DNA of 64,000 nucleotides from a virus, in the IMG/VR virus record IMGVR_UViG_3300042879_003994, positions 1 through 64,000 of that record. One strand, given 5' to 3'. Position 1 is the stretch's first letter, and each line of letters begins with the position of its first letter. The notes beneath the pieces are model-generated. The model was not told where the DNA came from. It did not search any database and saw only the letters and a program-made list of their open reading frames with translations. Below are positions 6,245-63,409 of the stretch, piece after piece. Both the position numbers and the translations under genes were made by a program.

Positions 6245-6249
6245 AATTA

Positions 6250-6337
6250 TGGAACGAGTAGGATTCGAACCTACGGATGATATTAAACCATCGGAAGTTT
6301 AGTAAACTTCTGCTTTAGACCACTCAGCCATCGTTCC
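6250..6337 (-). tRNA. tRNA-Ser with anticodon ACT (class II)
   Basis: Acceptor GGAACGA/TCGTTCC, D-arm GCTGAGTGGTCTAAAGC, anticodon stem GAAGT/ACTTC with loop TTACTAA, a long variable arm (GATG/CATC), T-arm GTAGG-TTCGAAT-CCTAC, discriminator A. CCA is not encoded. The long variable arm and D-arm identify a serine-type tRNA. The anticodon reads ACT, with an unusual A at position 34 (GCT would be expected). It lies directly downstream of the tRNA-Asn and the reductase operon and is probably co-transcribed. Confidence 0.85.
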
Positions 6338-6342
6338 AAAAT

Positions 6343-6414
6343 CTCCAAAACTAGGATTCGAACCTAGAACCCTCTCGTTAACAGCGAGACGCTCTACCGT
6401 TGAGCTATTTGGGA
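6343..6414 (-). tRNA. tRNA-Asn (GTT)
   Basis: Acceptor TCCCAAA/TTTTGGA (one C-U mismatch), D-arm GCTCAACGGTAGAGC, anticodon stem TCTCG/CGAGA with loop CTGTTAA, T-arm CTAGG-TTCGAAT-CCTAG, discriminator G. CCA is not encoded. The AAT/AAC codons it serves are abundant in this AT-rich genome. Confidence 0.9.
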
Positions 6415-6420
6415 ATAAAT

Positions 6421-7035
6421 TCATTTCAACCAAACCGATGTAGGATTATAAGCTTCTGTATCAAGATAATCCCAAACTTTCCAATCTTTTTCTCCTTTAG
6501 AATAAGAGATAATGTTAGAAAGAAATGCTTGTAAATCTTCAATATGCCAAACATCGTCAAGTAATTTTTTACCAAGATATCTAGATTGATGAGCGACATG
6601 ATCTGCGTAGCTGTATGCAAAAGCTGAAAATGGAGGAAGAACGCACCCCATTGAACAAAGGACACCCTGCATGCGAGAAGCTACTTCTTTCCCACCAACG
6701 GAATGCATAGTTACAATTACTCCCGCTGGTTTACCAAGCAAATGCTTTTTGCCTTCGATCTCTGTCATTTTTTCAAAAAGTTGTTGCATATTTGAACCCC
6801 AACTATCCCAATATGTTCCAGTGCAAAAAATAAGGGCATCACTCTCTTTAATAATATGACGAACTTTTGGCCAATAGAAATCTTTATGAAGATGAACAAT
6901 CTTTATCTTTATATTTGAATCAATACGATTAATTTTTTTTCTTATCTTCTTGATAAGAGAACCAGTATTTCCATTTTTACCGCCAATAGCTCCATTAATT
7001 ATGGTAAGAGTTTTTTTCTTTTCTGGCAAGTTCAT
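6421..7035 (-). CDS. NADPH-dependent FMN reductase-like flavoprotein
   Basis: Flavodoxin-like fold. An early glycine-rich phosphate loop (NGAIGGKNGNTGSLIKKI) is followed by SDALIFCTGTYWDSW, the FMN-contacting loop, and a GVIVTMHSVGG strand. 204 aa is normal. It probably transfers electrons from NAD(P)H to FMN or to an unknown acceptor. It is the last protein gene of a minus-strand operon that continues into the two tRNA genes. It overlaps the gene upstream by 41 nt. Confidence 0.75.
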   Translation of the reverse strand: MNLPEKKKTLTIINGAIGGKNGNTGSLIKKIRKKINRIDSNIKIKIVHLHKDFYWPKVRHIIKESDALIFCTGTYWDSWGSNMQQLFEKMTEIEGKKHLLGKPAGVIVTMHSVGGKEVASRMQGVLCSMGCVLPPFSAFAYSYADHVAHQSRYLGKKLLDDVWHIEDLQAFLSNIISYSKGEKDWKVWDYLDTEAYNPTSVWLK

Positions 7036-7288
7036 CTATATAGTCCTTTATTATATTATATAATCTAGATTCTTCTGGATTAGCTTCTCTTTCTATTTCT
7101 TCAAAATTATAGAATATATACTCTTTAAGTTGATGATGTTTGAATCTATGTATTCCTTTTATATCATCTCCGCTAACAAATATATATCTAAATGGAAGTG
7201 GTTCGTTTTTTATTTTATATAACTTTCCATATTTGGGGAAGATTTGTTCGCTTTTATCTAGAAAATTTAGTATCTTCTTAAATATCAT
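6995..7288 (-). CDS. Hypothetical protein
   Basis: 97 aa, no recognised domain. It contains a basic/aromatic segment (KYGKLYKIKNEPLPFRYI) followed by VSGDDIKG and an acidic C-terminal helix. It is tightly coupled: it overlaps the upstream gene by 4 nt and the flavoprotein gene downstream by 41 nt. Its operon position is the only functional hint. Confidence 0.6.
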   Translation of the reverse strand: MIFKKILNFLDKSEQIFPKYGKLYKIKNEPLPFRYIFVSGDDIKGIHRFKHHQLKEYIFYNFEEIEREANPEESRLYNIIKDYIDELARKEKNSYHN

Positions 7289-22921: not shown

Positions 22922-23311
22922 GGGCCTGAATTTGGTTTCGATTTTAGTAATAGGAATTAGAATGCAAGTAGAGGTTTAGGTGGGTCTCTTTAAAAAACCT
23001 TAAAAGTATTAACTGCCAAAACAGCCAAATACAAAGGTCATATCTCTGCTAGAGTTTCTCTAGTCGAGGAGACCGTTTCTGTAGCTTAAGTTCTACAGCG
23101 TGATTACCATGACACATCTATTGGATAATTGCGTATTTAGATGTCTCTGATTATAAAGTTTTTTTATTCTTTATTGTCATTGTATTCAAAATAAACTCGC
23201 TTAGTATGTTTGTTCTTTTCCCTATACAAAGCTAAAAATAAAAAGAAATAAACTTGTAGTATTTTAATTTAAATTATCTAAAAGACCTCGGTTCAACTCC
23301 GAGCAGGTCCA
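22922..23311 (+). ncRNA. ssrA: Transfer-messenger RNA (tmRNA)
   Basis: Rescues stalled ribosomes and tags the nascent protein. The acceptor stem pairs GGGCCTG (22922) with CAGGTCC (23304-23310). The T-arm is CTCGG-TTCAACT-CCGAG. The 5' part GGGCCTGAATTTGGTTTCGA matches the tmRNA D-region pattern. Helix 2 pairs TGCAAGT near 22960 with ACTTGTA near 23255. A resume GCC codon at 23015 opens a 24-residue tag, AKTAKYKGHISARVSLVEET then VSVA, with TAA at 23087-23089 inside a CTGTAG/CTACAG hairpin, as in helix 5. CCA is not encoded. About 390 nt, one piece. Confidence 0.92.
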
Positions 23312-23341
23312 AGTAAACTTATGATAAATTCACATAATAAT

Positions 23342-44301: not shown

Positions 44302-45227
44302 AAGTATTATCTGCATCTAGAATTAAGACTTTAGAGACTTGCTCTTGGGTTTATTGGAATAATTACCATGCCAAAATACCCCAGAGTCAAAATGATGGAG
44401 CCTTAAGAGGAACTATTTGTCATACTATATTTGAGCTACTTTTAAATCCAAGACATAAAGCTCACTATGATCAAATTATAAAAAGTAATTCAATTAGTGG
44501 CAGTAAAGCTATAACAAGATTAGTAAAAAAATTAAAATCTAAGGTTGGTTTAGATGCTTCTAATTTTGAGATTTTAGATCAGATGATTATGGTAGGTTTA
44601 AAACATGATTTTTTTGGTGAAAAAGATGGTAAAATTGTATCTCCCGAATACGCCTTTGAAATTAAGAATGATGAGCCAAAATATCATATCAAGGGCTTTA
44701 TTGATAAGCCTATTAAATCAAAGAATAAAATGGTTATAATTGACTATAAAAGCTCTAAAGCTAAGTTTAGGGGAGATGACTTAGAAGCAAATATTCAGGC
44801 TATGATGTATAGTTTAGCAAGTAAAAAACTCTGGCCTAAATTGAAACCTATTATAAGATTTTTATTCTTGAGGTTCCCAAAACAACCCATACAAGAACTC
44901 GAATTTACAGATGATCAAATCAAGGGGTTTGAATATTATCTTGAACATATTAATGATTATATTAATAAATTTGATGAAGACTCAGCTAAAGCAAATTTTG
45001 CGATAGATAATGATAAAAACAAGTGGATGTGTGGGATAGGCAACTGGAGATGTCCATATAGAGATTCTTATGAATATTATGTAAAATTAAATGAAAAGGG
45101 TGAAGCTATAGAATCTAGTCTGACTAGTGATTTTAAAAATACCGAAGGATACACGATAGAGAAAAGAAAATATTATGGTTGTCCCAAATTTAATACTCAA
45201 AAAACTAAAGATGACTTTTTAGATTGA
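44283..45227 (+). CDS. RecB/Cas4-type nuclease with likely Fe-S cluster
   Basis: 314 aa. LRGTICHTIFELLL, GFIDKPI, VIIDYKSSKAKF (D154, K156) and QAMMY (QxxxY, from Q172) are the PD-(D/E)XK RecB motifs. Cys20 near the N-terminus plus Cys250, Cys257 and Cys300 near the C-terminus give the 1+3 pattern of iron-sulfur AddB/Cas4-type nucleases. Probably an exonuclease in recombination. No cas genes or CRISPR are present. Confidence 0.8.
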   Translation: MESKSLKVLSASRIKTLETCSWVYWNNYHAKIPQSQNDGALRGTICHTIFELLLNPRHKAHYDQIIKSNSISGSKAITRLVKKLKSKVGLDASNFEILDQMIMVGLKHDFFGEKDGKIVSPEYAFEIKNDEPKYHIKGFIDKPIKSKNKMVIIDYKSSKAKFRGDDLEANIQAMMYSLASKKLWPKLKPIIRFLFLRFPKQPIQELEFTDDQIKGFEYYLEHINDYINKFDEDSAKANFAIDNDKNKWMCGIGNWRCPYRDSYEYYVKLNEKGEAIESSLTSDFKNTEGYTIEKRKYYGCPKFNTQKTKDDFLD

Positions 45228-45259: not shown

Positions 45260-46006
45260 ATGATACCTTTATTTAAATCTCACTATTCTCTAGGAAGATC
45301 AATTTTGACTTTAGAAGATAAGAGTGAAGTAGATGACTACCCAGACTCAATAATTCAAATAGCTAAAGAGAATAAATTAAAAGAGATATATTTAGTAGAG
45401 GATAACATGTCTTCTTTCTTAGAAGCTTATACCAATACAAAATCTAACAATATTAAGTTAAATTATGGATTAAGACTTTCAGTTACCGAATCAATGAATG
45501 ATAAGACAGATGAATCTAGACAAAAAACATCTAAAATTGTAATATTTTTTAAGAATAAAAAAGGTCATGAGTCCTTGACTAAACTATTTAGTATAGCAGC
45601 GAAAACTGGATTCTATTATGAACCAAGACTAGATTACGAGACTATTCAGAAGAATTGGTCTGATAATTTAATATTATGTATACCTTTCTACGATTCTTTT
45701 ATATTTAATAATACTTTAAGAAATTCTATATGCATTCCACAGTTTAATTTTACTAAACCAGTAGCTTTTGTAGAAGAAAATGATTTGCCATTTGATTCTA
45801 TCGTTCATAATAAAATGCAGAAATATGCCGAACAAAATAATCTAGAGATCTATAAGACTAAAAGTATTTACTATAAGAAAAAGAAAGATTTTAAAACATA
45901 TTTAACATTTCGTTGTATTAATAATAGAAGCATACTAAATAAGCCAGAACTTGAGCACATGTCTAGTAATGATTTCTGTTTTGAAAGTTACTTGGAGAAA
46001 AAATAA
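45260..46006 (+). CDS. DNA polymerase III alpha, PHP-domain subunit
   Basis: 248 aa from the ATG at 45260. MIPLFKSHYSLGRSILTLE aligns with the start of the DnaE PHP domain, followed by SIIQIAKENKLKEIYLVED and KLNYGLRLSVTE. The H-x-H metal site of active PHP domains is not kept (K-S-H instead). The polymerase core is encoded separately at 46842. This piece ends about where DnaE's PHP domain ends. Confidence 0.75.
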   Translation: MIPLFKSHYSLGRSILTLEDKSEVDDYPDSIIQIAKENKLKEIYLVEDNMSSFLEAYTNTKSNNIKLNYGLRLSVTESMNDKTDESRQKTSKIVIFFKNKKGHESLTKLFSIAAKTGFYYEPRLDYETIQKNWSDNLILCIPFYDSFIFNNTLRNSICIPQFNFTKPVAFVEENDLPFDSIVHNKMQKYAEQNNLEIYKTKSIYYKKKKDFKTYLTFRCINNRSILNKPELEHMSSNDFCFESYLEKK

Positions 46007-46644
46007 TGGACGAACACCTTTTAAGATATGATAAGAAAAAGAATCTCGTATTTATTGATTGCGAGACATTTAATCTCTGTTTAAACTTTTGCCATAATTT
46101 ACCTTGGCAAATTGCTATGATAAAAGTTAAGGGCGATCAAAAGATTGATGAAAAGAATTTTTATCTTAAATGGCAAACTGATTTAAAAATTAGCCAAGAC
46201 GCAGCAAGAATTACTAGATACGATCATAAGAAAGTTCAAAAAGAAGGACATGATCCAAAAGAAATATTTCCAACTATTAAAGATTGGTTAGACCATGCAG
46301 ACTATATTATAGGTCACAATACTATTGGATTTGATATTTACTTAATAAAAGAGTATTATAAATTTATGGGATGCAACTGGAGTCATTTAGTCAGTAAATT
46401 TATTGATACAAATACAATAGCTAGGGGTATAAAATACGGAATACCTTATAGCCCAAAAGAAAGTTTAATTGAGTATCAATATAAAATATACCATACAAAA
46501 AGAAAAAATGTAAAGAGTTCTCTAACTACTCTAGGTAAAGAGAATGGAATCGATCATGATTACGATAGACTTCATGATGCAATAAACGATCTTGACTTAA
46601 ATATAAAAGTATGGAATAAATTGAAATGGCAAATAGAGGTATAA
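46006..46644 (+). CDS. DnaQ-like 3'-5' proofreading exonuclease
   Basis: 212 aa, DEDDh family: VFIDCETFN (D18, E20), IIGHNTIGFD (D110), and H190-x4-D195 in LHDAINDLD. It sits between the PHP and polymerase genes, overlapping the former by one base, so it almost surely proofreads for this polymerase. Confidence 0.85.
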   Translation: MDEHLLRYDKKKNLVFIDCETFNLCLNFCHNLPWQIAMIKVKGDQKIDEKNFYLKWQTDLKISQDAARITRYDHKKVQKEGHDPKEIFPTIKDWLDHADYIIGHNTIGFDIYLIKEYYKFMGCNWSHLVSKFIDTNTIARGIKYGIPYSPKESLIEYQYKIYHTKRKNVKSSLTTLGKENGIDHDYDRLHDAINDLDLNIKVWNKLKWQIEV

Positions 46645-46645
46645 C

Positions 46646-46861
46646 ATGGCTTCATTAGACGATATTTATGATATGATTCAAAAATTAGACGACTCTAATA
46701 TTGAGTATCTTTTGATTACAGTACAGAAAGGTAAAAAGATCGGTAAAGCTGATGTATTTTATTCTTTAAAAGATAGAAATTCTATGAAAATCTTAACAGA
46801 AGGACTAAATAGATTTACAAAAGAAGTTGATAGACTAGACGATGAAGGCAAATTTGAATAA
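46646..46861 (+). CDS. Small protein within the polymerase block
   Basis: 71 aa, helical; ends in a charged segment (EVDRLDDEGKFE). GAGGT lies six nt before the ATG. It overlaps the polymerase gene by 20 nt. Possibly a small subunit or linker between exonuclease and polymerase; no family is known to me. Confidence 0.65.
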   Translation: MASLDDIYDMIQKLDDSNIEYLLITVQKGKKIGKADVFYSLKDRNSMKILTEGLNRFTKEVDRLDDEGKFE

Positions 46862-49436
46862 TTTCTTAGAAGACAAAAATTTTTCTTCTAAATTTGAAGA
46901 TGTAGATTTAGGCCTACATGGAGTAAGGCTTCCAGAATTTACTATCGAATCTTCATCTAAAAGACATCTTAATCTTAGTGAAGATGTTACAAATTACGAC
47001 TTTCTTAGAGCCTTGTCATTAAATGGGTTTAAAGAACTAAAAATAGATAAATCTTTACCAGAATATAAAAAATATGTAGATCGCGCAAAGTACGAGTTGG
47101 AAACTCTAAGAGAGCTAGGCTTTATTGATTATATCCTTTTAGTTTGGGACGTAATTAATTTTTGTAAAACTAATAATATACCAATTGGATTAGGTAGAGG
47201 TTCTGCCGCTGGTTCATTAATTTTATATCTCATTGGCGTGACAAGAATTGATCCAGTTAAATATAACCTTTATTTTGAAAGATTTATATCTAAGATTCGT
47301 GCTAAAAAGCAGGTTATTGATGGAATAACCTATCTAGATGGCAGTTTAATGTGTGACGTAGATCTTGATATTTGTTATTATAATCGCCACAAAGTATTAG
47401 AATATCTTGAGAATAAATTCAGAGGTAAAACAAGTAAAATTCTTACTCTGAATACTTTAAGTGGAAAACTATTAATTAAAGAGTGTGGAAAAATTATTGG
47501 TGAAAAAACCGAAGAAGAAATGACAATGATCTCCTCTTTAATTCCAAAAATATTCGGCCAAGTTAAAGATATTACAACTGCCTATGAGGAAGTACCAAAA
47601 TTTAAAGAATGGTGCGATGAAAATAAAGAGGTATATGAAATTGCTTTAAAGCTAAGAGATCTAATTAAAAATAAAGGCGTACATCCATCTGGAGTTTTGC
47701 TATCATATGATGATTTAGAAAAAGTCTGCCCTACAGAATTTTCCTCAGATAAAGAACCAGTATCAAGTTTTGATATGAATTGGGTTAGTGTTTTTAATAT
47801 TAAGCTTGATATTTTAGGTTTAAGAAGTGTGTCGGTAGTTCATGACGTATGCAAAAATATTGGAATAAAAATTCAAGACATTGATCTAAATCATGAATCA
47901 ATTTATAGAAATCTTCAAGACTTGAAATCTCCTCATGGACTTTTTCAAATCGAAGCAGATACAAATTTTAAAGTCTGTCAAAAAGTAAAACCAAAGAACT
48001 TAGAAGAACTAAGTGGAGTTCTTGCTCTTGCGAGACCTGGAGCTTTACAATTCGTAGATAAATATGCAAAATACACAAATACTGGAGATTACGAAGGAAT
48101 TCATCCTTTCTTTGATGACACCTTAAAACATACTGGTGGAGTTGCACTTTATCAAGAGCAATTAATGCAAATGGCTCATAAGATCGGATTTACTCTTGAT
48201 GAAGCAGAAATTTTAAGGAGAATCGTTGGAAAGAAAAAGATTGATGAAATTAAAGCTTGGCAAAAGAAAATTGAGTCCAAGATTAAGCAGAATAAATTAC
48301 CAAAAGAAGTCGGAGAAATTCTATGGAAAATTATGGAAGATTCTGCGAACTACTCATTTAATAAGTCTCATTCTCTTGCCTACGCAGCTTTAGCAGCAGT
48401 AACAATCTATCTTAAATTTAACTATCCCCAACAATTTTTCTTATCTTTACTCAAGATGAGTAGAAATGAACCTGATCCAATTGGAGAAATTTCCAAGATT
48501 CAGAAAGAAATGCATGAGTTTGGTATAGAATTATTACCACCTCATATCATTAAATCGGATATGGATTTCTCTATCGAAGATAAAGACATAAGATTTGGAC
48601 TTCTATCAATTAAAGGTATTTCGGATAAGTCTATAGAAAAACTAAATAGTTTTCGTAATAAATATTCTAATAAATTTGAAATTTTTCAAGCAGCAGAAGA
48701 GGCTGATCTTAATATTGGAGTATTATCAGCTTTAATTCAAGCTGGCGCTTTAAGTGGATTTAATCAATCTAGAAGTAAAATAGTATTGGAAGCTCAACTT
48801 TGGAATGTCTTAACCTCAAAAGAAAAGAAATACGTAATCTCTTTCGCTGAGAAATTTGATTATGACTTAATTAAGATAATTAAACATTTAAATAAATTTA
48901 CTGACGAAAAGAATCATATAGTAATTAAAGATACTAGATTAAATACAATTAAAAATAAGTATGACCCATATCTAAAAATCTATAATCAAAATAGTAAAAG
49001 TGAAAGTTTCGCTAATTGGTATTACGAGAAAAAGCTACTAGGTTATACTTATAATAAAAATCTAAAAGAGATATTTTCTGAGAAAAGAGAGAATTTAAAA
49101 TATATTTATGATTTAGCTGAAGAACCTATTAATTCTAAGATTGCTTTTGTAGGTCAAATAGAAGAAGTTTACTCTGGCGTATCTAAAAACGAAAAGAAGA
49201 CTAGGTATGTTAGGTTAAAGATATCCGATGAAACTTCATCAATCAATGCTCTTATATTTAATGATAATATTGAAAATAATAAACTATTAAATAATAAAGC
49301 TTTCGAAGAAGGTAATATTGTAATAGTTAAAGGATTAAAGAAAAATGATTGTATATTTGCAGACTTAGTAGCCATTCAAGATCACGAAATATACATGAAG
49401 TTAAATGATTTAAAGAAAATAGATAAAAATAATTGA
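46842..49436 (+). CDS. dnaE: DNA polymerase III alpha, catalytic core
   Basis: 864 aa lacking the PHP domain. GLGRGSAAGSLILYLIGVTR and the Asp-rich CDVDLDICY form the palm active site. GALQFVDKYA, LYQEQLMQMAHKIG and ANYSFNKSHSLAYA are fingers and helix-hairpin regions. A C-terminal OB-fold is visible (IAFVGQIEEVYSG, RLKISDETSSINALIF). The beta-clamp or tau-binding end is not evident. Confidence 0.92.
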   Translation: MKANLNNFLEDKNFSSKFEDVDLGLHGVRLPEFTIESSSKRHLNLSEDVTNYDFLRALSLNGFKELKIDKSLPEYKKYVDRAKYELETLRELGFIDYILLVWDVINFCKTNNIPIGLGRGSAAGSLILYLIGVTRIDPVKYNLYFERFISKIRAKKQVIDGITYLDGSLMCDVDLDICYYNRHKVLEYLENKFRGKTSKILTLNTLSGKLLIKECGKIIGEKTEEEMTMISSLIPKIFGQVKDITTAYEEVPKFKEWCDENKEVYEIALKLRDLIKNKGVHPSGVLLSYDDLEKVCPTEFSSDKEPVSSFDMNWVSVFNIKLDILGLRSVSVVHDVCKNIGIKIQDIDLNHESIYRNLQDLKSPHGLFQIEADTNFKVCQKVKPKNLEELSGVLALARPGALQFVDKYAKYTNTGDYEGIHPFFDDTLKHTGGVALYQEQLMQMAHKIGFTLDEAEILRRIVGKKKIDEIKAWQKKIESKIKQNKLPKEVGEILWKIMEDSANYSFNKSHSLAYAALAAVTIYLKFNYPQQFFLSLLKMSRNEPDPIGEISKIQKEMHEFGIELLPPHIIKSDMDFSIEDKDIRFGLLSIKGISDKSIEKLNSFRNKYSNKFEIFQAAEEADLNIGVLSALIQAGALSGFNQSRSKIVLEAQLWNVLTSKEKKYVISFAEKFDYDLIKIIKHLNKFTDEKNHIVIKDTRLNTIKNKYDPYLKIYNQNSKSESFANWYYEKKLLGYTYNKNLKEIFSEKRENLKYIYDLAEEPINSKIAFVGQIEEVYSGVSKNEKKTRYVRLKISDETSSINALIFNDNIENNKLLNNKAFEEGNIVIVKGLKKNDCIFADLVAIQDHEIYMKLNDLKKIDKNN

Positions 49437-49469: not shown

Positions 49470-50012
49470 ATGATATCATTTTATAAACCAAATAGTAAAA
49501 ATACAGGCACAGCTTGTAGTTTCAGCGTAAATTCAAAAGATGGCTCCGTCTGGAGTTCATTAATTAAACAAAGCTCTTGGAATGAAGCAACAAAAACTGG
49601 TTCGTTCTCAGATAATAAAGATAATCCACAAAAGAGCGCAAGAGTAAAATTCTCAATGACAGAAGTAGCTGGCCTTTTAGAAGCGCTAGATAAAAATGTA
49701 GAGTTTTCAGCTTATCATTCTTCTGATAAACAAATAACAAAAATTAAATTCTCTCCATATATTAAAGACGATAAACAAGTCGGATTTTCTTATAGCGTAA
49801 ATAAAGAAAGCAAAGATAATATAGAGAATAAACAATCATTTTTACTTGGCTTTTATTTTAATGAAGCTCGTTTATTGAAAGAATTTCTTACCCACGCACT
49901 AAACTCTATTTTTAAGGCTCAAGAGGTTGAAGCGATTAAGAAAATAAAAAATTCAAAATCAGCCCAAAATTCAGATAAATCAGATTCACAAGAAGATAGC
50001 GAACTTTGGTAA
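49470..50012 (+). CDS. Candidate single-stranded DNA-binding protein
   Basis: 180 aa. The N-terminal 120 residues are beta-rich (MISFYKPNSKNTGTACSFSV, then VKFSMTEVAGLLEALDK and KQITKIKFSPY). The C-terminus is acidic and ends DSQEDSELW, an aromatic-terminated tail like those of SSBs. Its own promoter and place after the polymerase support a replication role. Not a classical OB-fold SSB by eye. Confidence 0.55.
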   Translation: MISFYKPNSKNTGTACSFSVNSKDGSVWSSLIKQSSWNEATKTGSFSDNKDNPQKSARVKFSMTEVAGLLEALDKNVEFSAYHSSDKQITKIKFSPYIKDDKQVGFSYSVNKESKDNIENKQSFLLGFYFNEARLLKEFLTHALNSIFKAQEVEAIKKIKNSKSAQNSDKSDSQEDSELW

Positions 50013-57316: not shown

Positions 57317-58687
57317 ATGCCAACATCAAGAGAGATTTATGATTTAATTGTAAGCGGTAATCAATCTTTAAATACCGAATTAAGTTCTTTAACGCCCTCT
57401 ACTCAAGTCTTACTTTACGAAATAGATTTGTCCGAGATTGCGCCAACTATGATTAATTATAATTATAACGGCGAGCAACCTATAAATAATGGAATCTTCA
57501 GAATATATAATGATTATAATATATATAAATTATCCACAAATCCATATGGTACAATAAAATGGCAGCAAAATTATTATTATCCATTTCCAATTTTTGCAGA
57601 GGGATTTGAATATTCATCCGCTGGAAGTTTGCCAACTCCAAGAGTTGCTATATCTAATTTATCTCCAGATTATTCCTCTAATTCTTTCTATAGATACATT
57701 AGAATGCAGATGCAAAGTCTAGGTGATATTGTTGGCGCAAAATTTAGTAGAATTAAAACCTTTTTAAAATATCTAGATGGTGCAAATTTTTCTGGAAACG
57801 TAAATCCATTTAATCCAAATACAGGTCTATATGAAATAGAATTACCAAGGGATATATATTATATTGATAGAAAAACTGTAGAAAACAAAAATATTATTGA
57901 ATATCAATTAAACACAATACTTGATGTCGAAAATTTAACTCTCCCAGCTAGAACGCTTTATGCTCAAAAATGTCCATTTCAATATAGAGGTGAAGGATGT
58001 GTTTACGAATATAATAGTAGATTAACAGACATACATAGTGGAGTTTATGCTTATACAGTTAATCCAGGATATACAGTTAGTGGGTTACAGACTGCTCCAC
58101 CAGTTGCCACAGATAATGATCAATTATTTATTGGAGGCGTATTTGCCACAGGCGCTGCTGGAACAGCAACAAATACTGCTATCTTTAGGATCACTGGTGG
58201 ATTAGGAAATTCGGGACTTTGGAGAGAAACTTCTCAATACGTATCTGGAGATTTTATATTTTTACAAAATAGAGGTTTAAAATATTATTACGTTTGTATA
58301 AATAACCACACGGCAGACGTATTTAATGCTCCACCAAATATAAATTATTGGGCTTCTGATTCATGTGCGAAAAGTATTAATTCTTGCAGGCTAAGATGGC
58401 TTAAGAACCCAGCCTTCAGACCAGTTATTTGGCCAGCTAATAGGAACGGAGAAAATTTTGTTCAGACAAGAAATCGAATTGAATCTCTTTATGGTACAGG
58501 AGAAAGATTAAATCTTTGGGTTACTGGTATAAATGGAGTAGCAGTAAATTTCCCAAGAAGACCAGGATGCGAAGATCCTTCTTCTACTAGAGCGCACGGA
58601 CTACCAAAAGATGCTTTTGGCAACTATCTAAATGGATTTTTACCATTTGGAGGATTTCCAGGAACAAACCAACCAGCTTCTCAATAA
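57317..58687 (+). CDS. L: Minor tail protein L-like, Fe-S site with large insertion
   Basis: 456 aa. Cys219-x8-Cys228 and Cys350-x6-Cys357 reproduce the spacing within each cysteine pair of the [4Fe-4S] site of lambda gpL. Between the pairs lie 121 residues instead of about 22. The insertion ends with a Trp/Tyr/Cys-rich segment (SQYVSGDFIFLQNRGLKYYY, then HTADVFNAPP) of carbohydrate-binding-module type. The protein forms part of the tail tip with J. Confidence 0.82.
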   Translation: MPTSREIYDLIVSGNQSLNTELSSLTPSTQVLLYEIDLSEIAPTMINYNYNGEQPINNGIFRIYNDYNIYKLSTNPYGTIKWQQNYYYPFPIFAEGFEYSSAGSLPTPRVAISNLSPDYSSNSFYRYIRMQMQSLGDIVGAKFSRIKTFLKYLDGANFSGNVNPFNPNTGLYEIELPRDIYYIDRKTVENKNIIEYQLNTILDVENLTLPARTLYAQKCPFQYRGEGCVYEYNSRLTDIHSGVYAYTVNPGYTVSGLQTAPPVATDNDQLFIGGVFATGAAGTATNTAIFRITGGLGNSGLWRETSQYVSGDFIFLQNRGLKYYYVCINNHTADVFNAPPNINYWASDSCAKSINSCRLRWLKNPAFRPVIWPANRNGENFVQTRNRIESLYGTGERLNLWVTGINGVAVNFPRRPGCEDPSSTRAHGLPKDAFGNYLNGFLPFGGFPGTNQPASQ

Positions 58688-58688
58688 A

Positions 58689-59414
58689 ATGATCGATAAG
58701 AAAAATAAAAATTTTATAAGAAATAAATCATTAGAAGATTTTCCTAATGAGACTTGCGGGTTTATAGTAAAAAATGAAAATAGATTTGAATGTATTCCAT
58801 GCAACAACATAGCGGAAAATCCAAAAGAAAATTTTAAAATTTGTTCTAAAGAATATTTACAAATTAAAAATAGATATAAGAATATATTATACCTATATCA
58901 TAGTCATACAAATGGAAATGATAATTTTTCAGAAATGGATAAGAATTGTGCAGAAAATCTATGTTTACCTATCATATTATATAATACAGAAAGAGATAGT
59001 ATTAAAATATATGAACCATCAAATATTAAGAAAGAATATATAGGAAGATTTTATCAGCACGGAAAATATGATTGCTTTAAATTAATAGAAGAATTTTATA
59101 AAAAGGAAAAATCTATAGAATTTAAATATAATAAAGAATTCTATACAAAGACTTTAAAAGAGATGGATATAAAAAGTGAGGTTATTAAATTTTACGAACA
59201 TAATAATTTTGTAATTATTAATAAAAACGAAGAATTAGAATTGCACGATATTTTATTAATTGATGCTTTTGGAGAAAACAAACCAAAGCATTTTGCGCTT
59301 TACATAGGAGATGGAAGAATTTTACATCAGCCCATGTTTGGTTTCTCAAAAATTGAAAATTATTGTAATTTTTATAGAAGGCGTACTGATTCAGTATTTA
59401 GGTTAAAGGTATGA
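58689..59414 (+). CDS. K: Tail assembly protein K-like (JAMM plus NlpC/P60)
   Basis: 241 aa from the ATG at 58689, one base after L. The JAMM metalloprotease motif is complete: Glu21, His71-x-His73-x7-Ser81-x2-Asp84. From about residue 120 an NlpC/P60 domain follows (KYDCFKLIEEFY with Cys129; KHFALYIGDGRILHQ with the His). In lambda-like phages this protein joins tail-tip assembly and may cleave peptidoglycan. Confidence 0.87.
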   Translation: MIDKKNKNFIRNKSLEDFPNETCGFIVKNENRFECIPCNNIAENPKENFKICSKEYLQIKNRYKNILYLYHSHTNGNDNFSEMDKNCAENLCLPIILYNTERDSIKIYEPSNIKKEYIGRFYQHGKYDCFKLIEEFYKKEKSIEFKYNKEFYTKTLKEMDIKSEVIKFYEHNNFVIINKNEELELHDILLIDAFGENKPKHFALYIGDGRILHQPMFGFSKIENYCNFYRRRTDSVFRLKV

Positions 59415-60175
59415 TAAGAGTAAATTTACATGGTAAATTGGGTGAAGATTTAGGAGAATCTTGGGACCTTGATGTATCAAGCGTCGCAGAAGCTTTAAGA
59501 GCTATAGACGCTAATACCAGAAGACTAAGGCAATGGCTAATAAACTATAAAGATCAGTATGAATATGAAATTTTAGTAGATAACCAAGAACTTTTTACTG
59601 AAAAACCAGAATACAAAAATATAGAAGAAATAAAAAATTCAGAATTTTGTTTAAACTTAAAAGATAAAATAAAAACAATAGATATTGTTCCATCGATTAT
59701 AGGATCTGGCGCAGTTGCAAAAATTTTTGTTGGTGCAGCAGTAATTATTGGCGCTGTAGCTTTAGCAGTATTTACTCCGTTTATTTTACCTGCTATAGCA
59801 TTAGGTTTTGCAGGTTTAGGATTAATCGCAGCAGGAACCAGCGAATTACTTTCAAAGCCCCCACCATCTGTTCCATTTACAGCACAGCAAGTAAATCCAA
59901 TTGATGGAGAAGGAGAATCTGGAGGACCTACTTCGTATTTATTCAATGGTCCTGTAAATACAGTTGGAGAAGGCGGACCTGTTCCAGTTGGATATGGACA
60001 ATTAATAATTGGTGGTAATAATGTATTTAGTAATTATGAAATTATTTATAGAGCTTATAAATCAGATTTCAGTGATACAACTTTACAAATTGATTATCAA
60101 GGAGATACTCAATATCTATTTAATTCTAAATGTTACCTTATTAATCAACAATCATTACAGTCCTCACCTTTTTAA
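59411..60175 (+). CDS. I: Tail assembly protein I-like
   Basis: 254 aa. The N-terminal 90 residues form a ubiquitin-like beta-grasp (MIRVNLHGKLGEDLGESWDL, VAEALRAIDAN). A long hydrophobic region (KIFVGAAVIIGAVALAVF to LGLIAAGTSELL) is followed by VPFTAQQVNPIDGEG and PVPVGYGQLIIGG, typical of gpI. It overlaps K by 4 nt and precedes J. Confidence 0.8.
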   Translation: MIRVNLHGKLGEDLGESWDLDVSSVAEALRAIDANTRRLRQWLINYKDQYEYEILVDNQELFTEKPEYKNIEEIKNSEFCLNLKDKIKTIDIVPSIIGSGAVAKIFVGAAVIIGAVALAVFTPFILPAIALGFAGLGLIAAGTSELLSKPPPSVPFTAQQVNPIDGEGESGGPTSYLFNGPVNTVGEGGPVPVGYGQLIIGGNNVFSNYEIIYRAYKSDFSDTTLQIDYQGDTQYLFNSKCYLINQQSLQSSPF

Positions 60176-60178
60176 TTT

Positions 60179-63100
60179 ATGGGTAATGCAAATAAATATG
60201 CAGATGGTTTGAGTTTTGTCCTGTTTCCAGGAAATATAGCTTATGGAACAGTTGGATATAACTTTCCAGAAAGTACAGCTCAAGATGATGGCGGTGGAGC
60301 AGGTGGAAACATATCGTTAAGTTTTAGTGGATCAAGAATACCTTTTACTAATAGTCCAACGTTTCTTTATTATAGAGGACCAAGCGGTTATGCGGCAAAT
60401 TATACTCCACTAGCAGTAATGACCGGTGGTTTAATACAAAGATTCTTTGAACGAGGCCCATCATTTCCTGGTTCTACATTCACTGGAAATGTGTTCGGTG
60501 CACCAGATTTAAGAACAATATTTGGAGTTAGTCCTAATACAGGCGTAGAAGGCGGTGTATTTCCACAAACAAATGGAGTCTTCATAAATGAAAGAACGAG
60601 AAATGGTCGAGCTTTTAATTCTATATCTCAGGTTAATATATTAGATTTAATTTGTGAAGGACCAATAGAAGGTTTTGTGACTGGAATATATGTGCCTAAT
60701 TTGAGTGGTAAAACTACTGGTGACATTGGATATACAAGTGTTACTTTTCAACCATACGAACAAACTTATAGCAATCCAGAAACAAGATCTATATTCTGGG
60801 ACGATGTACCAATAACAGATTTACAAGGTTTTTTTAATTTCCAATTTGCAGATTATAAATATACATATGGAGAAAAAACAAATGATCATACTATCTATAA
60901 TCCATATTTAAATCTTTACGAAGATAGAAGAGATTATTTTGGTAGACAAGTAGATAGAAATAAAATACCACTACAAACATCTGTTACTAAAGCAGTTGGA
61001 GATACTTTGTATGGATTTTATTTAATTAGTGGAAATAATCAAGTAATTTCACCAAAAACATATTACATATATAATACAGATGTGTCTTCAATAAGAATTA
61101 ATTTTAAGATAAATAGTCTTTATGAACAAATATTAACTGGAATAAATGCTGGTGACGTAGAGAAACATCTACAAATATTTAGGATCATAGTGTCTAGACT
61201 ATTAAAAAATGGAGAGACTGTTCTATTGGATACTTCTAAATACTCTCCTTATATTAAGGACTATTATTCTAGGGATGAATTTGGCGCTCAAGGAAAAATC
61301 GCAAATAGCCCAGTAATTGTTCCATACGAAATTACATTAAGACCATATGCTGAAAATTCTCCTTGGTTTGAACTTTTCCCAAATCAAATAGGATGGGCAA
61401 TAGACGTAGTAAAAATGAGTAGAGAAGGCGTTGGTGGAGGATTTTCAACATCTACAACTGTAGATAGCATAACAGAAATTTATTCAGACAGATTTACATA
61501 TCCAGATGCAGCTTTAGTTTATTCAAAATTTGATGCAAGATATTTTAATCAAATACCCACAAGAACATACAAGGTAAGACTACTTAAGGTAAAAATACCA
61601 ATTAATTATGATCCAATAACAAGAAATTATAATGGTCCGTGGAATGGACAATTTAAAGTTGCGTGGACAGATAATCCAGCTTGGTGCTTCTATGATCTTA
61701 TAACTAACAATAGATTTGGATTGGGGAAATATATAGATTCAAGTCTGACAGATAAATGGACGCTATATGAGATTGCTCAGTATTGTGATGAACTTGTTTC
61801 TGACGGAACAGGTGGACTAGAGCCAAGATTTAGATGCAATGTTTATATTGCAAATAAAGAAGAAGCTTACAAAGTATTAAATGATATGGCAAGTATATTT
61901 AGAGCAATTATTTATTACTCAGCAGGACAAATTACTGTTTCTCAAGATTCATTAAAGCAACCTATCTATTTATTTAATAATAGCAATGTAATTGAAGGAA
62001 CGTTTAATTATTCTGACGCTTCAAAGAAATCAAGAAAAACTGTTGCATCAGTTAGATTTAATGATGAAAATGATAATTTTAAACCAGCTATAGAATATAT
62101 TGAGGATAAAAATTCAATATTAAAATACGGCATAAGAGAAACAGATATTGTTGCATTTGGTTGCACAAATAAAAATCAAGCTAGAAGAGTCGGTAAATGG
62201 TTATTAACCACACAAAATACTGAAACTGAATTGGTAGATTTCCAAGTCGGTCTAGAAGGTAACTATATAAGACCAGGCGATGTAATATTAATTCATGATC
62301 AGTATAGAAAAAATGCAGCCTACGCAGGTCGAACTGTAGAACTAACTACTGGCTACGCAGTTTTAGATCTGCCATATAATTTTACTAATACCTATGCAAT
62401 AACTGGAGTCAACGCAAATAATTCATTTGTATTTAATATATTAACTCCTACTTATAATTTGAATTTAGGTACAACTTTAGGAGATCTTTATAGTACCGGA
62501 TTTGTTGATATAACTTCATCTGGGGTCACAGGATTAAATAGCTCCTTCTTCAGAAGAGGTCAGATTCAAACTATAACAATTAATAATCCTCAAAATTATT
62601 TAACTAGTGGATCTGGTATATATACAAATAATATAAGAATAAATTTCCCATCAAGATTGTCTAATTCTGGGTATAGCTTACCTCAAAATACAGTCTGGGC
62701 AATAGATATTAATCCATCTGGTTATCTGGCAGCTGGCATTGATACAAGATCTCCTATCAATAATCCTTCAAATGCCTTATATCCAGGATATTATTTAGAG
62801 CCATATCTAAATGAACCTAAAAAATATAGAGTCCTAACAATCTCAGAAAAAGAGCCAGAACTTTTTAACATTAATGCTCTAGAATATAATGATCAAAAAT
62901 ATTATGACATAGATAATGTTGCAACTCTAGTCAATGTTCCTGTCAAACCAGGTTTACCAGTTGCGCCAAGTCTTTTCTTGAGCGGAATATTTAGAAGTCC
63001 AACTACAAATTCTTATTTAAGTAACCCAGCTGGAGCGCATTTTGTTACAAATCAAGGTGGAATAAATAGCATAATGTACAACATACAGCCACCAAACAAT

Positions 63101-63409
63101 AATGCTAATAATAGTTTATATTATGTCTATGTAAAGCCAACTTCTAATTTTACAAATTCAACAACTCCAGAGATCTATCTTGCAGATGTTGTTTCTCCTT
63201 TACTAATAAGAACTGGCCTAACCCCATTCAATTGGGCAAGTAATTTGATTCCTCCATTCTTGACACCAACAGGTTCGGGTTTTTACTACTTTAGGGTATT
63301 CGCTGAAAATGCCCTTGGCGAAAGAAGTTCTCCAGCTACAGGCCTATACGTCTTAACTGCCCAAGCTTCTGTTTTTAGCGTTATAGCTTCTGGATACAAT
63401 ATATATTGA
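60179..63409 (+). CDS. J: Tail tip attachment protein J-like (central fibre)
   Basis: 1076 aa, near the 1132 of lambda gpJ. FNSISQVNILDLICEGPIEG, then WCFYDLITNNRFGLGKYIDS, CNVYIANKEEAYKVLNDMAS and PGDVILIHDQYR follow the J scaffold. The C-terminal 180 residues, beginning near PVKPGLPVAPSLFLSG and ending YYFRVFAENALGERS, are a fibronectin-III-like domain. It forms the tail tip and contacts the receptor. Confidence 0.9.
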   Translation: MGNANKYADGLSFVLFPGNIAYGTVGYNFPESTAQDDGGGAGGNISLSFSGSRIPFTNSPTFLYYRGPSGYAANYTPLAVMTGGLIQRFFERGPSFPGSTFTGNVFGAPDLRTIFGVSPNTGVEGGVFPQTNGVFINERTRNGRAFNSISQVNILDLICEGPIEGFVTGIYVPNLSGKTTGDIGYTSVTFQPYEQTYSNPETRSIFWDDVPITDLQGFFNFQFADYKYTYGEKTNDHTIYNPYLNLYEDRRDYFGRQVDRNKIPLQTSVTKAVGDTLYGFYLISGNNQVISPKTYYIYNTDVSSIRINFKINSLYEQILTGINAGDVEKHLQIFRIIVSRLLKNGETVLLDTSKYSPYIKDYYSRDEFGAQGKIANSPVIVPYEITLRPYAENSPWFELFPNQIGWAIDVVKMSREGVGGGFSTSTTVDSITEIYSDRFTYPDAALVYSKFDARYFNQIPTRTYKVRLLKVKIPINYDPITRNYNGPWNGQFKVAWTDNPAWCFYDLITNNRFGLGKYIDSSLTDKWTLYEIAQYCDELVSDGTGGLEPRFRCNVYIANKEEAYKVLNDMASIFRAIIYYSAGQITVSQDSLKQPIYLFNNSNVIEGTFNYSDASKKSRKTVASVRFNDENDNFKPAIEYIEDKNSILKYGIRETDIVAFGCTNKNQARRVGKWLLTTQNTETELVDFQVGLEGNYIRPGDVILIHDQYRKNAAYAGRTVELTTGYAVLDLPYNFTNTYAITGVNANNSFVFNILTPTYNLNLGTTLGDLYSTGFVDITSSGVTGLNSSFFRRGQIQTITINNPQNYLTSGSGIYTNNIRINFPSRLSNSGYSLPQNTVWAIDINPSGYLAAGIDTRSPINNPSNALYPGYYLEPYLNEPKKYRVLTISEKEPELFNINALEYNDQKYYDIDNVATLVNVPVKPGLPVAPSLFLSGIFRSPTTNSYLSNPAGAHFVTNQGGINSIMYNIQPPNNNANNSLYYVYVKPTSNFTNSTTPEIYLADVVSPLLIRTGLTPFNWASNLIPPFLTPTGSGFYYFRVFAENALGERSSPATGLYVLTAQASVFSVIASGYNIY

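Follow-up and report, generated by a model that had tools for sequence, protein, structure and literature searches.

A viral clade in which the PHP domain and the core of a DnaE-type DNA polymerase are encoded by separate genes

The 64,000-nucleotide stretch of viral DNA analysed here (the window; positions 1 to 64,000 of IMG/VR record IMGVR_UViG_3300042879_003994) is part of a 73.8-kb IMG/VR virus record and carries, at 45260-49436, a C-family DNA polymerase that is distributed over separate genes, i.e. those for a PHP protein, a DEDDh exonuclease (EXO), a small conserved protein and a polymerase core that has no PHP domain (POL). These four open reading frames, together with a fifth that provides context but lies outside the split, are as follows (aa, amino acids).

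45260..46006, + strand: free-standing PHP domain, 248 aa, of the kind present in C-family (DnaE-type) polymerases, with a degenerate metal site (Pfam PHP, 6e-12)
46006..46644, + strand: DEDDh 3'-5' exonuclease (EXO), 212 aa, probable proofreader (Pfam RNase_T, 6.9e-12; phrog_192)
46646..46861, + strand: conserved 71-aa protein, an optional component with no Pfam family, its gene separating EXO from POL in 104 of the 140 complete loci
46842..49436, + strand: PHP-less DnaE-type polymerase core (POL), 864 aa, comprising palm, thumb, fingers, tandem HhH and C-terminal OB
49470..50012, + strand: 180-aa candidate single-strand binding protein (SSB) of the phage, whose C-terminal tip is acidic and ends in W

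In the window the PHP stop codon and the EXO ATG overlap by one base, EXO and the 71-aa gene are spaced by 1 nt, and the 71-aa gene overlaps POL by 20 nt; that the stops and starts of the four genes overlap or nearly abut suggests coupled translation. An alternative, in-frame TTG start for the PHP gene is present at 45224. A first-pass annotation, made from the sequence without database searches, had proposed that a DEDDh exonuclease and a 71-aa protein lie between a PHP piece and a polymerase core, and all four reading frames are indeed present. It had further proposed that the PHP piece ends, and the core starts, at the DnaE PHP boundary. This is borne out by the coverage of phrog_405 (a PHROG DNA-polymerase profile of 1190 positions), on which the PHP protein aligns to 62-289 and the core to 321-1090, placing the break at the PHP/palm junction. 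Mapping of the profiles onto fused phage and Escherichia coli enzymes assigns PHP to the first ~250 residues and POL to the region from ~250-310 onward. The last PHP helix (~20-30 residues in DnaE) is recognisable in neither the PHP nor the core chain.

Seven scans of IMG/VR, with sequences or profiles as queries, yielded 461 related loci, of which 149 have distinct core sequences; 140 of these lie on contigs that extend far enough upstream to be read and are referred to as complete. In all 140 the order is PHP-EXO-(71)-POL with separate genes, and in none are PHP and POL in one frame. The core identities among the split relatives are ~63-100%, one PHP and one core are present per record in all ten large records (100-178 kb), and the ratio of nonsynonymous to synonymous substitution (dN/dS) for PHP is ~0.04-0.08, with dS near saturation, indicating purifying selection. 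Thus, the split in this DnaE-type enzyme is genuine, as the first-pass annotation had proposed. It is fixed across the whole clade, a widespread group of uncultivated phages; among the known relatives of the enzyme, PHP and core are nearly always on a single chain. The possibility that an ordinary fused gene was interrupted by an assembly or sequencing error can in practice be dismissed, since 140 distinct loci share the same arrangement and have reading frames that are intact and under purifying selection; on the census this candidate was rejected. No close fused relatives were found among the best 80 matches of each of three IMG/VR core-profile scans, which were started from different first sequences, and a fused sister of the clade may exist as a remote relative beyond them.

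There is precedent for the halves of a split polymerase being joined into one chain, in that the cyanobacterial dnaE is split and intein-joined (PMC3919608). A joining of PHP and core after transcription, whether by a split intein, trans-splicing or recoding, is nevertheless extremely improbable in the present case, because the PHP protein ends at its own stop without an extra domain and a complete EXO gene sits between the halves. An intein specifically was rejected, as none of the four proteins matches an intein family.

With respect to the type of polymerase, the core matches the Pfam families for DNA_pol3_alpha (2.4e-56), the fingers (9e-32) and HHH_6 (4e-18), with a weak match for the C-terminal OB fold (0.002, below the Pfam cut-off). 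In the nucleotidyltransferase palm the GRGS motif is present as GRGSAAGS, and the catalytic residues Asp174, Asp176 and Asp323 are kept in 142 of 142 relatives. The PHP-exonuclease-polymerase order had been likened to that of PolC, a parallel which does not survive comparison of the sequences: the core profile matches DnaE (Thermus) with an E-value of 7e-91 (309 bits) versus 0.033 (16 bits) for PolC. The likeness of order fails also, because the PHP domain is uninterrupted, EXO is a whole, separate gene following PHP and the OB fold is C-terminal (the domain layouts of DnaE and PolC, including the position of the OB fold, are taken from PMC3919608). A PolC-like enzyme was rejected on these grounds. 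In the tree the cores form a single monophyletic group (support 1.0) on a long stem, with unresolved neighbours; the nearest cellular DnaE proteins have 27-34% identity to it, and a search of genome contigs returned nothing close that could be a recent cellular source.

The PHP protein gives a profile match to residues 96-251 of Thermus (Taq) DnaE (E 4e-9). Its AlphaFold model (predicted local distance difference test, pLDDT, 71; predicted template modelling score, pTM, 0.73) was compared with known structures and does model as a PHP domain, with the distorted beta/alpha barrel of that fold. Each of the 18 top VIA-align matches is to a C-family PHP domain (Z 13.8-16.9), the best of them (Z 16.9) aligning model residues 1-235 to Taq DnaE residues 7-242 without interruption. 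The C-terminal region is strongly conserved, 20 of the 41 residues at 202-242 being invariant, yet residues 218-248 have a pLDDT <50 in the single-chain model, as would be expected for a segment that folds on the core.

The metal-binding motif of active polymerase PHP domains is HHDHEH[C/H]DH (PMC12926913). Alignment with intact phage PHP domains indicates that all nine ligand positions are substituted in the window protein, in accord with the degenerate site that had been suspected, and the metal site is, judging from these substitutions, dead. The replacement residues are themselves strongly conserved among the relatives (K6 in 147/148, K92 in 147/148, R72 in 140/148 and D48 in 144/148), implying that the site is not drifting but is kept as something else. 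The proposal that the PHP protein aids replication as an active enzyme in its own right, such as a phosphoesterase or pyrophosphatase, draws on the fact that PHP folds are frequently metal-dependent phosphoesterases, to some of which the model gives weaker fold matches. It is, however, very unlikely, given that none of the nine canonical ligands is kept in the window protein and that three of the positions are basic and near-invariant (n = 148).

The exonuclease, by contrast with the PHP protein, retains its active site. It is of the DEDDh kind, as first proposed from the sequence, and its catalytic residues are intact (D18, E20, D110 and H190 in 147 of 147 relatives and D195 in 146 of 147), and the best PHROG match is to phrog_192, 'DNA polymerase exonuclease subunit' (1.6e-24). 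The 71-aa protein is probably an accessory part, its gene not being found beside POL in 36 of the 140 complete loci. It matches no Pfam or PHROG family; its model, a predicted alpha-beta-beta-alpha arrangement, is of low confidence (pLDDT 71, pTM 0.43), such that the lack of a fold match to it in the PDB carries little weight.

The split would have arisen once, before the clade diverged, perhaps by entry of a mobile nuclease gene into the linker between PHP and palm, with an exonuclease gene ending up between the halves. Such an origin is plausible because the PHP-EXO junction is a site of insertion: there is no insert in 59 loci, 300-700 bp in 65 and more in 13. The inserts include genes for phrog_18407 proteins, which resemble PD-(D/E)XK nucleases by eye, for a second, unrelated small family, and for a pair consisting of a GT17 glycosyltransferase and a cupin. 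Examples in relatives are at 6702-7163 in locus L003, 6681-7160 in L037, 6568-7146 in L015 and 6047-7358 in L080.

Our preferred interpretation, to which we assign a probability of roughly three in four, is that the locus encodes a split DnaE-type replicase, in which PHP and core reassemble, PHP acts as a scaffold and EXO proofreads. The PHP protein would bind the core non-covalently at the position that the fused domain occupies in DnaE, so restoring the alpha subunit; since its metal site is dead, its part would be that of a scaffold, steadying the polymerase and positioning the separate DEDDh exonuclease close to the primer end, in the way that the inactive PHP domain of alpha does for epsilon in E. 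coli. Three lines of evidence point to reassembly and proofreading. In bacteria, PHP domains that have lost metal ligands occur together with a proofreading exonuclease on a separate chain, and Pol III is still stabilised by a PHP domain that is inactive (PMC3666897); the PHP C terminus, from which the chain of DnaE continues into the palm, is highly conserved but poorly modelled alone; and split phage enzymes can reassemble, as exemplified by the NrdA of Aeh1 and by split gene 43 (PMC2988022). A multi-subunit replicase with a structural PHP, as the first-pass annotation envisaged, is likely, and is the best inference.

That the PHP protein is a separate chain with a dead metal site, and one that diverges faster than the core, might also be reconciled with its being a free regulator or decoy, e.g. 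one that draws away the host replisome by binding the exonuclease or polymerase of the host. We consider this unlikely, albeit less so than the other alternatives, because the core would then be without any PHP domain, whereas such domains are reported to be universal in C-family polymerases (PMC12926913), and because the PHP gene always adjoins EXO and the core, with one copy per record.

Several observations weigh against the split replicase as proposed. The confidence of the PHP model is moderate (pLDDT 71) and it derives from a single chain; EXO has no obvious long C-terminal PHP-binding tail of the type present in E. coli epsilon; and no conserved Q..[LMI][FL] pentapeptide, which in DnaE-type polymerases binds the clamp and lies between HhH and OB, was found in the core (n = 15 sequences), where a divergent motif is possible. 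The ten large records gave no match to a sliding clamp (PF00712), a clamp loader (PF13177) or a bacterial SSB (PF00436), which suggests that the viruses probably rely on host factors; because these records are fragments, a viral clamp and loader may have been missed. A search for a gp45-type clamp gave no match and was uninformative, as the control likewise matched nowhere. Finally, the junction in the window holds no homing endonuclease of a known family, which leaves the origin step described above a conjecture.

A more far-reaching version of the split replicase can be put forward tentatively. Separate PHP, EXO and polymerase subunits might be obligate throughout the clade, the metal site might have been rebuilt as a basic cluster (K6, R72 and K92) that either takes over the structural role of the metal or contacts DNA or the exonuclease, and the 71-aa protein might be a new accessory subunit in most members. 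We regard this combination as possible, although doubtful in its entirety.

The locus lies in the replication region of the record. Upstream of PHP are genes for a DnaB-like helicase, ThyX, a Toprim primase and a PD-(D/E)XK nuclease; the last of these normally abuts PHP and in some relatives sits several kb upstream (L025, L026 1034-1972). The 180-aa gene is found downstream of POL in the loci of most relatives. Its product matches no Pfam or PHROG family and has an acidic tip with W in 12 relatives (EDSELW, EDDLW, DMEW), like the tips of SSB proteins, making it a candidate phage single-strand binding protein. Elsewhere in the window there is a complete transfer-messenger RNA (tmRNA) gene at 22922-23312 (RF00023, 106 bits) with an unusual predicted tag, AKTAKYKGHISARVSLVEETVSVA, and two adjacent tRNA genes on the - strand at 6249-6415, i.e. 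for Ser (predicted anticodon act) and Asn (gtt). Lambda-like tail tip genes at 57317-63409, encoding tail protein L, an NlpC/P60-JAB protein and a J-like protein, suggest a siphovirus of a Gram-negative host.

In C-family polymerases the PHP domain frequently lacks activity, and what it does is a matter of debate, with structural, proofreading and pyrophosphatase functions having been considered. A lineage in which a dead PHP domain has been maintained for a long time as a gene of its own is a natural experiment: PHP can be omitted, titrated or swapped, and what it contributes to structure and to the recruitment of the exonuclease becomes directly measurable. There is also a practical consequence for annotation, in that pipelines seeking a full-length DnaE will label the core as truncated and the PHP protein as unknown.

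Comparison with known systems helps to define what is distinctive about the window family. In PolC, PHP, DEDDh exonuclease and polymerase functions likewise occur together, but in one chain, with the exonuclease inside PHP and an N-terminal OB fold. The alpha-epsilon pair of E. coli Pol III is similar in having a DnaE-type core, an inactive PHP and a separate DEDDh exonuclease (PMC3666897); its PHP domain is, however, fused to alpha and retains more of the metal ligands. The split gp43 and NrdA of T4-like phages are examples of phage replication enzymes in two reassembling chains (PMC2988022), though they belong to other enzyme families and their splits are associated with homing endonucleases or with an insert that is not translated. 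C-family polymerases in pieces are encoded by KLEB27-3 (with an HNH gene), phiT1 and KKP_3916, the breaks in these cases being inside the palm or fingers rather than at the PHP boundary. In Pbunavirus and related phages (phiKTN6, Bas101, Karil-Mokiny-1) an exonuclease gene lies directly upstream of DnaE, but the polymerase is a single polypeptide (965-1035 aa) that includes the N-terminal region; thus, the location of EXO next to POL is ordinary, and what is unusual is a PHP gene in its own right upstream of EXO.

The closest parallels are in the Microbacterium Krampusvirus phages Hager (gp57/gp58) and TinyMiny (gp61/gp63) and the Arthrobacter phage Wollypog (gp56/gp59); loci of cultured actinophages with separate PHP and DnaE core genes are L569 (2312-5687) and L572 (1332-5208). 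Cluster EF phages have been described as having two Pol III alpha-related genes where one is typical (PMC7302621). As in the window family, the split falls at the PHP/palm boundary, with PHP and a PHP-less core encoded by two nearby genes. In contrast to that family, the Krampusvirus and Wollypog cores group in the tree with actinophage DnaE proteins, in a separate phage clade with a fused sister, Gibson (1065 aa); the last PHP helix stays with PHP, and an HNH endonuclease gene (Wollypog) or a small open reading frame (TinyMiny) lies between the halves, with no exonuclease. The PHP metal ligands of Hager are, by inspection, intact, and together with the separate position in the tree this implies that the window family is an independent case. 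The separation of PHP and core is therefore in itself already known from Krampusvirus and Wollypog; what is new in the window family is its independent, clade-wide fixation, the presence of an exonuclease between the halves and the inactivation of PHP.

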